From assembly GCA_007844125.1 (NCBI GenBank), contig CM017572.1, forward strand, positions 34,523,544-34,587,543: DNA of 64,000 bases, written 5' to 3'. This document shows, one piece after another, positions 5,746 to 13,403 of the stretch. The DNA is from Sinonovacula constricta. Lineage: Eukaryota > Mollusca > Bivalvia > Cardiida > Solecurtidae. Under the pieces are notes generated by a model that made no database searches, had not been told where the DNA came from, and saw nothing but the letters and a program-made list of their open reading frames with translations. The position numbers and the translations under genes were made by a program. Position 1 is the first letter of the stretch. Each line of letters starts with the position of its first letter.

Positions 5746-5799
5746 CTGCATGTTATGTTCCACCTCGAAGGGCAGAATGTGTTCGCTTATTTCGTCAGA
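5746..5799 (-). CDS. Integrase gene, possible exon 12
   Basis: A 54-base phase-0 candidate with donor GTAGAT and a poor acceptor (CCAAAAAG). It encodes SDEISEHILPFEVEHNMQ, which could be the segment ending in the oxyanion-hole Gln of the protease. The exon with the catalytic Asp, expected between this and 6196, was not found. Confidence 0.25.
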
Positions 5800-11700: not shown

Positions 11701-13403
11701 GAAATAGCGAAATACTATATATGTCCGTTATGCAAATTAAAAGATTTTGTCATGATGGCTCAGTACAGACGATTGAATTCTACATGAAGTAAATGGATTT
11801 CGACAGTATTGATGTATGCTTACAAGGCACCTTATTCGCAATTGTGCACGAAGACAAGATACTCGGATAAAGTTAACCACTAAATTATATGTAAACAAAA
11901 TAATGGTTTATTTCCCAAGTGGATTGTTAAATACTTTGTCTTACCTATTAGATCTACCCCAACGAGTTCAAGAGGCTCGTACACCTTGATTGGCTGCATC
12001 ACAGGGGCCTGCTTCTTTATTTTTTCGAAATGTTGGCATTTGTCGCATGTTGCAATCTAATAAAGGCATGGTATGACATTGTCAGTTATATTTTCTGGCA
12101 TTAGTTAACCTATTATAAAAGGCTCCTCAAAGAACAAATATTACAAACTCACTGTAGGATTATTCATTAGATATGGGTTGTATTAATGTGTAATAACTTA
12201 GATTTATTATCAACTTATAGTAAATAAAAATATACTTCAACTATATGCTAAACAGATTAAAAGTCAACGTGAATTTTAGGACAGAAACGTGGCACGAAAA
12301 ATTCAATTTATATTTCTTTTATCCCAGAATGGGCGTATAATTGTAAATTAAAGGTACTATTTTATGTATATAATACTGTAATACACATATTAGCTTCAAA
12401 TGGCTTCCATAGCTTTAAAATATCAATGTAAGCATGTATTGTGCGGTGGTAAAGTTAACTTACAAATTCCGCCACGTCGCTTTTCATTCCATTCCAAAAA
12501 TAACTTCTACTGATCTTATCTAGGGTCGCGTTTCTTCCACTGTGCCCCGACATCGAGCTGGAATGGTATTGACGGAGAAGGTCCCTCACAACCTCCACCT
12601 CTGTCACCACTTGTCGAGGTCCTCTCTTGGTATCTCCGACATACTTCAATATTTCACCTACAGCAAATGAAATTGTAGTTATAAAAGTGTGCTGCTGAAA
12701 GAATTACAGAAGTAGTAATAAAACTAAAATCTGGATCTTAGCACGAATAAAATATTAGTTTTGGCCTTTTATTGCGTTTTTTATATTACAAATTGTTATC
12801 GTCAGCACTTTTGTATCTGTTTAAATTGTAAATTAAAAATGTACCAAACTTTGCTAGAATGACTGTACATGAAGAAAAGACATTATTTTCTTTTTATTGT
12901 GTGCATATATTGTTTAAAACAAATGCGGTACCATACAAGTGCCGCGCCATTTTGCCGCACATTCTCAACTTGACGCAAATATTTACTAGTAAAAATCTTC
13001 ATGGTGTTTTCATCAATCGTGATACCCCTGTATAGAAACCATTGTCTGTCTAAAAACGAACGGGTTAACAAGGTAAGGTAATGCCATACACAACATTAAT
13101 TTATTATTCAGTATGTCTGATGTACGTTTCCTAGAAATCGTTTTGTCGGTTGGATCTATTCTTTTTTATTTCAATTTTTTAAAGCTTAAGACAAAGATAA
13201 TTACTCAAATATCAACAGTGTTTTTTCCAATAAATTAAAATAGAACAAATGATACAACAATTACCTTCAAGAGTATGTTTTTTCGCCAAATTGCGTATAG
13301 TCTTCTTCAGGCTGGCTGATACTTGAGGGGGATAGATGCCCTTTCTCATGTAGTCCTTCACGTTGCTGAGTTTCCGTTTATATTCGGAAAGTCTTAGTTC
13401 CAT
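5746..13403 (-). CDS. Multi-exon integrase / Ulp1-like protease gene (KRBA2-like, Ginger-type), overall span
   Basis: At least eleven minus-strand exons with GT-AG borders form one gene. Exons 1-8 join with matching phases into about 343 codons: an N-terminal basic region, an HHCC integrase zinc-binding domain, and a DDE core with all three acidic residues (VGVDLIG, SDQGREF, NGLDERTN; exactly 35 residues between the second D and E). Exons 9-11 add a gypsy-integrase-like C-terminal segment (LVCKVAYDQLKPLR) and then a Ulp1/SENP-like start (LPDE joined to IIDAYL; GNHWILL). Integrases of this kind cut and join DNA at element ends; Ulp1-type proteases remove SUMO or ubiquitin-like tags. KRBA2-like genes in molluscs, and Ginger transposons, are the known relatives. 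Missing: an exon between 7737 and 9312 of length 3n+2, the Asp exon, and a clear nucleophile. It could be a domesticated gene, an intron-bearing DNA transposon or a recent pseudogene. The integrase call is firm; the protease call is good. Confidence 0.7.
6196..6264 (-). CDS. Integrase gene, exon 11 (protease catalytic His)
   Basis: Acceptor TAATTGTAG, donor GTAATG, 69 bases in phase 0. It encodes NFNSLDGIVCAVNQSGNHWI followed by LL. The HW pair is the catalytic His-Trp of Ulp1-type cysteine proteases. Confidence 0.55.
6931..7047 (-). CDS. Integrase gene, exon 10 (Ulp1-like helix)
   Basis: Acceptor TTCTTGTCAG, donor GTATTA, 117 bases in phase 0. Joined after LPDE it reads IIDAYLSKLCEGRIYAHISC, matching the LxDExIxxYLxxL signature that opens Ulp1/SENP catalytic domains. 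Confidence 0.55.
7285..7425 (-). repeat. SINE family A fragment in an integrase-gene intron
   Basis: It has GGAAGATCCCAGACAAATAT and GCCAGCGCACCGCATG on the plus strand, matching the bodies at 3598 and 31040. It lies between exons 9 and 10. Confidence 0.5.
7443..7737 (-). CDS. Integrase gene, exon 9 (integrase C-terminus, start of protease domain)
   Basis: 295 bases, phase 2 to phase 0, donor GTTAGA, acceptor GCGGGCAG (weak pyrimidine tract). It encodes RIVGIDEKQRVELVRPNGER and CKVAYDQLKPLR, resembling the chromo-like tail of gypsy integrases. It then has a Ser/Thr/Asn linker and GVGNYSLYASSFQFLKTTLP, which looks like the first strand of a Ulp1 peptidase, ending LPDE. Confidence 0.55.
7796..7889. 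repeat. (TA)n microsatellite
   Basis: About 47 uninterrupted TA units, inside the intron where one integrase exon is missing. Confidence 0.9.
8378..8466 (-). repeat. SINE family A head fragment
   Basis: The minus strand has CCTAATGGTAAAGTCGCCGA, nearly identical to the A-box region of the copy ending near 31252, then a degraded B-box region. Confidence 0.45.
8982..9056. repeat. (ATA)n microsatellite
   Basis: About 25 ATA units in the long intron between exons 8 and 9. Confidence 0.9.
9312..9419 (-). CDS. Integrase gene, exon 8 (linker)
   Basis: Acceptor CATTTATTAG, donor GTAGGA, 108 bases in phase 0, encoding a polar linker (MEDAQADCTIVPEADETEKE then SYVQDRENKTLTIFER). In relatives the following exon carries a basic YD-x-KH segment; that exon was not found between 7738 and 9311. 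Confidence 0.5.
9669..9700. repeat. (GTCTC)n short array
   Basis: Five to six tandem GTCTC units just before exon 7 of the minus-strand gene. Confidence 0.75.
9756..10013 (-). CDS. Integrase gene, exon 7 (catalytic Glu)
   Basis: Acceptor TTTTCTTACAG, donor GTAATC, 258 bases in phase 0. It encodes LGILRSVASAYHPQTNGLDE with the catalytic Glu, then GEKGEGWDDVLDDVAFSIR and FMLFGR-like SPFFLMFGRNPRMPVE, all typical of this integrase family. Confidence 0.75.
10078..10125. repeat. (CAT)n microsatellite
   Basis: CAT/ATC repeats next to exon 7; the counterpart of the ATC tract beside exon 6. Confidence 0.85.
10186..10228 (-). pseudogene. Degenerate tandem copy of integrase exon 6
   Basis: The minus strand reads GGTGCCAAAGAGAA, then AATTTCTGTAACAAG followed by GTGTGTT, paralleling GGAGCACCAAAGAGAA, GAATTCTGTAATAAG and GTGGGTTT of exon 6. 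The middle part coding for SDQGR is deleted. Each copy is followed (minus strand) by an ATC/CAT microsatellite, so a segment of roughly 430 bp seems to have been duplicated. Confidence 0.45.
10366..10530. repeat. (TTA)n and (ATC)n compound microsatellite
   Basis: About 25 TTA units at 10366-10443 and about 24 ATC units at 10459-10530, in the intron after exon 6. Long open frames of one amino acid here are artefacts of the repeat. Confidence 0.9.
10588..10642 (-). CDS. Integrase gene, exon 6 (second catalytic Asp)
   Basis: 55 bases, phase 2 to phase 0, donor GTGGGT. It encodes RWGAPKRILSDQGREFCNK; the Asp of SDQG is catalytic. The acceptor (GATAAG) is weak, but phase and peptide fit exactly. 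Confidence 0.65.
11344..11482 (-). CDS. Integrase gene, exon 5 (core strand region)
   Basis: Acceptor TATCAG, donor GTAAAC, 139 bases, phase 1 to phase 2. It encodes GNQYVLSMTDYFTKFVDLF and ALPNKDARNIAKCIKTF, the standard stretch between the first and second catalytic Asp of gypsy-type integrases. Confidence 0.7.
11945..12056 (-). CDS. Integrase gene, exon 4 (CC of the zinc site, first catalytic Asp)
   Basis: Acceptor TTTATTAG, donor GTAAGA, 112 bases, phase 0 to phase 1. It encodes IATCDKCQHFEKIKKQ with the two zinc cysteines and ends in ELVGVDLIG, the first acidic residue of the DDE core. Confidence 0.7.
12464..12657 (-). CDS. Integrase gene, exon 3 (zinc-binding domain)
   Basis: Acceptor TTTGCTGTAG, perfect donor GTAAGT, 194 bases ending in phase 0. 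It encodes KRGPRQVVTEVEVVRDLL and then YHSSSMSGHSGR and SYFWNGMKSDVAEF. The two histidines are the HH half of the integrase HHCC zinc site; the cysteines follow in exon 4. Confidence 0.7.
13026..13049 (-). CDS. Integrase gene, exon 2 (24-base microexon)
   Basis: Acceptor CGTTTTTAG, donor GTATCA. With exon 1 (phase 1) and exon 3 it gives the continuous peptide DRQWFLYRGEILKYVG, which fits the family. Reading through the donor gives a longer frame (to about 12885) with no good donor of the right phase, so the short form is preferred. Confidence 0.5.
13265..13403 (-). CDS. Integrase gene, exon 1 (start codon)
   Basis: ATG at 13403 in a fair Kozak context (GCCATGG); 46 codons plus one base; donor GTAATT at 13264. 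The peptide has NVKDYMRKGIYPPQVSASLK and NLAKKHTLE, the usual lead-in to the zinc-binding region of KRBA2-like integrases. A T-tract and AAG lie two bases before the ATG, so this could instead be an internal exon with the true start beyond the satellite. Confidence 0.55.

Follow-up and report, generated by a model that had tools for sequence, protein, structure and literature searches.

Ginger1 elements have been proposed as a link between the integrases of gypsy retrotransposons and DNA transposons, and the fusion of such an integrase with a Ulp1 domain is already on record for them: Ginger1 transposases with a C-terminal Ulp1, e.g. Ginger1-5_HM, were described in 2010 (PMC2836005). In that paper, Bao, Kapitonov and Jurka suggested that the Ulp1 or OTU tail plays a role in transposition, for example in repair signalling, and left that role as a suggestion. 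The Ginger1 elements published there measure ~2.6-7 kb and have 0-4 introns in the paper's table, and the Ginger1-derived host genes have 6-8 introns (PMC2836005). In our study, we analysed a window of 64,000 nucleotides from the bivalve Sinonovacula constricta (C18:34523544-34587543 of a 1.22-Gb assembly), in which an earlier note, made from the letters alone, had described an intron-rich gene joining a complete integrase to a Ulp1-like cysteine protease, either as a mobile element or as a domesticated gene. Positions given below are those of the window, and negative coordinates lie to the left of its position 1. We are highly confident that the locus is an internally damaged, gene-bearing copy of a giant Ginger1 cut-and-paste DNA transposon. 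Its membership in Ginger1 rests on its ends, flanks, domains and place in the tree, and the lead towards Ginger given by the earlier note was right. What is new is not the fusion but the size of 38.9 kb, the number of introns, the repeat arrays and a protease domain whose acid is lost in all three copies.

Like the Ulp1-bearing Ginger1 transposons (PMC2836005), this locus combines an H2C2 zinc finger, a gypsy-like DDE integrase, a GPY/F module (in a sister copy) and a C-terminal Ulp1 (Peptidase_C48, or C48) domain with TGTNR ends, terminal inverted repeats (TIRs), CCGG flanks, introns and non-autonomous relatives. It differs from them in its length (38.9 kb vs ~2.6-7 kb), in the introns of the undamaged gene (at least 13 vs 0-4), in having two unlike end types (L and R), in arrays of ~122-bp units with a TIR-like motif, and in the lost acid of its C48 domain; the published Ginger1 literature consulted here has neither an element above ~7 kb nor a Ginger1 transposon with over four introns. 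Four GIN1-like integrase-C48 proteins of fish and a brachiopod (P0006 of Astyanax, P0014 of Poecilia, P0015 of Metynnis and P0065 of Lingula) have the same domain order as the window gene, and their integrase, GPY/F and C48 regions can all be aligned with it. These proteins keep the C48 Asp, unlike the window, and the database's Pfam column assigns a PHD finger to P0006, P0015 and P0065; in the window gene, a weak possible piece at about -3911 to -3964 (E 0.57) is not claimed as one. The host genes GIN1, GIN2 and Imagin are likewise Ginger1-derived and multi-exon; they are reported to occupy fixed positions and, in GIN2 and Imagin, to have altered or lost the DDE triad (PMC3424704, PMC12863088), whereas the window gene has three copies, TIRs and an intact DDE triad.

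The element spans -12384 to 26478, with CCGG flanking each end, as in the 4-bp target duplication of Ginger1 (CCGG, or CCGT/ACGG). The search for TIRs and further copies that the earlier note had recommended was productive outside the window: searches confined to it found no TIR, because the left end lies beyond it, and the 20 kb to its left, also taken in for the end search, contain a single CCGG/CCGT/ACGG plus TGTNR site, at -12388. A pattern-free BLAST comparison of the two flanks matched the surroundings of this site to 26442-26483 in inverted orientation (42 bp, 83%, E 2e-5), and the match starts at CCGG on each side. Both ends start TGTCACGGTCT and are 72% identical across 67 alignment columns from the first base; their TGTCA... 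termini and a TIR of ~66 bp agree with the TGTNR ends and the 40-270-bp TIRs of Ginger1. Just inside the left end there is a 122-bp repeat (~28 units, -12315 to -8942), and the 123-bp array beside the gene start is inverted relative to it, the gene lying between the two arrays. In this second array, 11 units carry 11 exact minus-strand copies of a 17-nt motif of the right TIR, a motif that may have a role in transposase binding.

The gene was modelled as 12 minus-strand exons in the window (Table 1), whose 11 junctions all show GT on the donor and AG on the acceptor side, with compatible phases at 10 of them. The model encodes 335 + 232 residues, that is, 567 codons without a stop (~6e-18 by base composition alone), and the GC content of its exons is 0.46, compared with 0.31 in the introns. 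With the exon to the left of the window and an extra exon of a sister copy, the undamaged gene plan would have at least 13 introns. As the earlier note had stated, the integrase part carries the HHCC residues and the three catalytic acids with 35 residues between the last two (D205 and E241); six exons (13403-9756), joined at GT-AG in every case, yield H78, H85, C115 and C118 together with D146, D205 and E241. The spliced product matches the Pfam families Integrase_H2C2 (E 1e-18) and rve (E 3.1e-13), the zinc finger and core found in Ginger1, and the H2C2 and DDE residues show little or no variation across 11 aligned proteins. The integrase called complete in the earlier note is complete in its zinc finger and catalytic core but not in its GPY/F module, whose first-half exon has been deleted from the window copy. 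Exons 1-2 also contain YMRKGIYPP ... LKYV, a candidate counterpart of the YPYY motif that Ginger1 has upstream of the zinc finger. No reverse transcriptase (RT) or RNase H, as a Gypsy LTR retrotransposon would have, was found in the spliced product, the interior of the element having been scanned only in part for RT.

Table 1. Coordinates of the Ginger1 element, its ends and array, and the exons of its gene.
Feature	Position	Strand	Remarks
Ginger1 element, in-window part	1..26478	-	TIRs and CCGG on both sides; left end at -12384 (C18:34511159)
Right TIR (R type)	26415..26478	.	Pairs with L-type end at -12384; right end C18:34550002-34550025
CCGG target-site flank, right	26479..26482	.	Matching CCGG at -12388..-12385
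123-bp tandem array, 12.4 copies	13496..15025	.	Begins ~90 bp before the start codon of the gene
Exon 1	13265..13403	-	Start codon; N-terminal region
Exon 2	12464..12657	-	H2C2 histidines H78, H85
Exon 3	11945..12056	-	H2C2 cysteines C115, C118; first catalytic Asp D146
Exon 4	11344..11482	-	Integrase core
Exon 5	10588..10642	-	Second catalytic Asp D205
Exon 6	9756..10013	-	Catalytic Glu E241; remainder of core
Exon 7	9312..9419	-	Linker after core; ends in phase 0
324-bp deletion site	8861..8861	-	Relative to C1:53.2 Mb copy; exon with first half of GPY/F module gone
Exon 8	7443..7737	-	Second half of GPY/F module, linker, LPDE; needs upstream exon for phase
Exon 9	6931..7047	-	IIDAYL; start of C48 domain
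Exon 10	6196..6264	-	NHWILL; catalytic His
Exon 11	4245..4333	-	C48 catalytic-acid position, Asn here; not in exon set of earlier note
Exon 12	2849..2975	-	C48 catalytic Gln and Cys; not in exon set of earlier note
Exon 13	-922..-1018	-	FAENYLKDGKLEID...; 0.9 kb left of window

The C-terminal part of the spliced product matches Peptidase_C48 with an E value of 1.9e-9 and 38.1 bits, against a Pfam curated cut-off of 20.7, in agreement with the C-terminal Ulp1 or OTU domain of Ginger1. All three families named for the profile search in the earlier note were thereby recovered, the third with exons 11 and 12 included. The exons to which that note had assigned the protease (7443-6196) have no Pfam C48 match by themselves at E up to 1, an outcome that the note had named as refuting, and it is the addition of 4333-4245 and 2975-2849 that brings the score to 38.1 bits. 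Its LPDE/IIDAYL and NHWILL signatures do align with fish integrase-C48 proteins, but the domain is completed only by these two further exons. An exon that it had placed at 5746-5799 is rejected because its inclusion lowers the score to 23.6 bits and breaks the NHWILL/VVEIK join, and a candidate at 4014-3950 is rejected because 4333-4245 joins 2975-2849 directly with matching phases. A protein search with the C48 part only returned nothing at E 1e-3 among 229 candidates, and 15 pattern matches in viral contigs yielded none that was confirmed.

The first protein search for relatives of the gene, in which scoring was confined to the 7990 candidates with the most words in common, gave 269 proteins at E up to 1e-3, the best 120 of which are animal integrases; C48 and PHD accompany the integrase in some of them, OTU in others and RT in still others. 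The second search, based on an alignment, gave 409 proteins, and its best 120 include C48-bearing proteins of Branchiostoma, Argopecten and Mya; the nearest integrase relative among the matches listed is a Littorina protein. In a 60-row tree, from which nine chosen rows without a long enough core match were left out, the window shares a clade of 52 rows with relatives that bear C48 or OTU, and a 99/99 split divides this clade from the RT-bearing side (seven RT-bearing rows and one unlabelled row, P0107). The integrase therefore groups apart from Gypsy, as those of Ginger1 do, in a clade named via the literature rather than by a Repbase Ginger1 reference. Within this clade the window belongs to a 29-row set with nine C48-labelled rows (98/95), and proteins labelled C48 do not separate from those labelled OTU (5 and 4 changes); roughly half of the C48 assignments were taken from the database's Pfam column and the others from motifs judged by eye.

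Two further copies of the gene were identified at C1:53.2 and C1:54.8 Mb. In both, exon 6 is present and exons 8-12 follow one another as in the window; each copy lies 11-21 kb inward of an L-type end, and their coding identity to the window is 0.976 and 0.971 in the exons compared. Gene fragments were also observed on C11 and C4. In the window copy, exon 8 requires two bases from upstream that exon 7, ending in phase 0, does not supply, so the integrase and protease parts are out of phase; this clash predicted a missing exon, which was found in the C1:53.2 copy between exons 7 and 8, with a tblastn match to GPY/F modules at 2e-14. Relative to that copy, the window is without 324 bp at 8861; lost with them is the exon for the first GPY/F half, while the second half remains in exon 8. 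A search for a hidden GPY/F exon in 9311-7738 gave only two phase-compatible open candidates and no convincing match, with lysine-rich low-complexity matches at best (E 0.001 against a database of 1.6 kb, uncorrected for composition); the deletion explains its absence. The integrase-protease fusion described in the earlier note is thus confirmed in part, the two parts being out of phase in the window copy. The sister copies are damaged as well: that at C1:53.2 has a stop in exon 8, and in that at C1:54.8 exon 8 matches as two separated pieces, a split that points to a lesion.

The ends of the element recur across the genome. A pattern of CCGG followed by the 20 outermost bases of the L or R type has 152 exact matches. 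The R end with its CCGG has 336 when up to 3 mismatches are allowed, a distance within which the L type falls; the reversed-pattern control gave 0 in each case, and, as the patterns include CCGG, these counts are not an independent test of target preference. Twelve of the 24 one-mismatch ends listed depart from the pattern in the flank itself, 4 of them as ACGG or CCGT and 8 by other changes. The ends fall into two main types, L and R, and the first 100 listed of the 152 form 19 neighbour pairs less than 45 kb apart, 16 convergent, 2 divergent and 1 tandem. Fifteen of the 16 convergent pairs consist of one L and one R, and thus the 72% identity between the window ends is the normal asymmetry of the family. 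The long ones of these 16 pairs, nine elements of 6.5-24.3 kb chosen for their two ends with CCGG in the pattern, contain none of the gene exons (0/9, E up to 1e-2). All nine share positions 11-3464 of the window element (its left end with the array) and stretches of its positions 25865-38881, within 13 kb to the right of the gene, and all are without the segment from about -8934 to 13465, save for one 167-bp match in one of them. Over the last 5 kb, eight are 89.6-98.5% identical among themselves, and E_C2b is 85.4-88.1% identical to those eight. One gene-less relative (L055-L057, C2:11.89-11.91 Mb) has an inserted Gypsy-like pol frame similar to P0135 (E 9e-146). At C4:27.65-27.76 Mb, a set of three ends recurs ~82-84 kb away with identical one-mismatch variants, which suggests a segmental duplication carrying a Ginger1 element.

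The mobile-element option of the earlier note is borne out by the TIRs with CCGG, the many further ends, the gene-less relatives and the two additional gene copies, and its other option, a Ginger1-derived gene that selection has maintained in the host, like GIN1, GIN2 or Imagin, is in our view quite unlikely. The many introns are reminiscent of such host genes, which have 6-8 (PMC2836005), the DDE triad is intact, and exons 5 and 6 are identical between the window and the C1:53.2 copy (312/312 bases) against 91% and 88% in introns 5 and 6; yet intron 4 is 99% identical. A domesticated gene would be expected in single copy and without TIRs, whereas this one is enclosed by TIRs and CCGG flanks, has two sister copies, and carries a lesion in each of the three, at C1:54.8 a probable one. 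The ratios of nonsynonymous to synonymous change (Ka/Ks) are 0.0207/0.0345 and 0.0259/0.0424 (~0.60 and 0.61), from few changes in 415 and 219 codons, and would indicate at most weak constraint on the gene copies. It is very improbable that unrelated Ginger1 ends flank by chance an older, immobile integrase-Ulp1 gene, so that the 38.9 kb never moved as a unit. The very long span, ends only 72% alike and the 85.6-88.4% identity of the window element to the other copies would fit such an arrangement, but the difference between L and R ends is family-wide, 9/9 gene-less elements have sequence in common with the window element just within both ends (at the right, stretches of ~13 kb), and in each of the three gene copies the distance from an L-type end inward to exon 6 is 18-22 kb.

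Several points weigh against the reading of the locus as a giant Ginger1 transposon. The length of 38.9 kb is far above the published 2.6-7 kb (PMC2836005), and later insertions may contribute to it. The exon joins are predicted from GT-AG signals, phase and homology, and the window copy as sequenced would not make a joined protein, the deletion breaking the phase. For the two C1 gene copies, neither R-type ends nor exons 1-3 were among the matches listed, which for the exons were filled by Gypsy matches. In their last 5 kb, all nine gene-less elements are 85.6-88.4% identical to the window element, which may represent a sister subfamily and is not necessarily what drives them at present. The function of the Ulp1-like part is, in addition, one that we infer.

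An active SUMO/ubiquitin-like protease, stripping modifiers at the target or in repair signalling and thus near to the idea of the 2010 authors, is possible for this part, although we consider it the less probable option. The catalytic His, Gln and Cys are retained, their columns being invariant in an 8-row alignment, the C48 score lies above the Pfam cut-off, and an eight-sequence profile of the window domain and seven relatives matches SENP1 at 7e-29 (0.007 with the window domain alone). At the acid position, where an active protease would carry Asp and 7/7 relatives of alignment A1 do, the window has Asn and both sister copies have Ser. An integrase-C48 protein of the lancelet Branchiostoma floridae (P0121) also has Asn at this position, and Asn serves as the third residue in papain, so the domain may still be active. 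Editing of host modification by a protease, as put forward in the earlier note, appears less likely in the window family because the catalytic acid is Asn or Ser in all three copies, and non-cleaving binding is somewhat favoured over active proteolysis.

For the Ginger1 transposon that we propose, the integrase would bind the TIRs and perhaps also the TIR-like motif of the arrays, and its DDE core, by analogy with the family, would cut at the TGT/ACA ends and join them into CCGG sites; the gene-less copies would have been moved in trans. The Ulp1-like part, with His, Gln and Cys kept and the acid lost, would most likely bind SUMO/ubiquitin-like marks or act as a weak protease. A bolder and, to us, rather unlikely extension is a distinct giant Ginger1 lineage in which the inverted TIR-like arrays are landing platforms for a transposase that mobilises 6-24-kb gene-less elements, and in which the Ulp1-like domain recognises SUMO/ubiquitin-like marks without cleaving them and so guides or anchors the transposase. 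Our results extend Ginger1 to ~39 kb, to a gene of a dozen or more introns and to gene-less 6-24-kb elements with the same ends. The role of the Ulp1/OTU tail was left as a suggestion in 2010 (PMC2836005), and the family offers a natural test of it: it has hundreds of ends and three copies of the gene, its gene-less members reach 98.5% identity over 5 kb, and its protease domain retains His, Gln and Cys with the acid lost.

Other features were observed in and around the element. A degenerate 26-bp minisatellite lies within it at 17257-18834, and the gene-less element E_C8a has a similar-looking frame at 5158-5442. Immediately beyond the right end there is a reverse-transcriptase frame like those of long interspersed nuclear elements (27339-29045, minus strand; RVT_1 E 2e-41). 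Further to the right, the window contains a B-box (TRIM-like) gene on the plus strand (44891-48094; zf-B_box E 5e-11 in its first frame) and a satellite with a 61-bp unit in ~193 copies (48616-60310). Rfam tRNA matches at 35304-35377 and 63247-63304, uncalled by ARAGORN, are possibly heads of tRNA-derived short interspersed nuclear elements.

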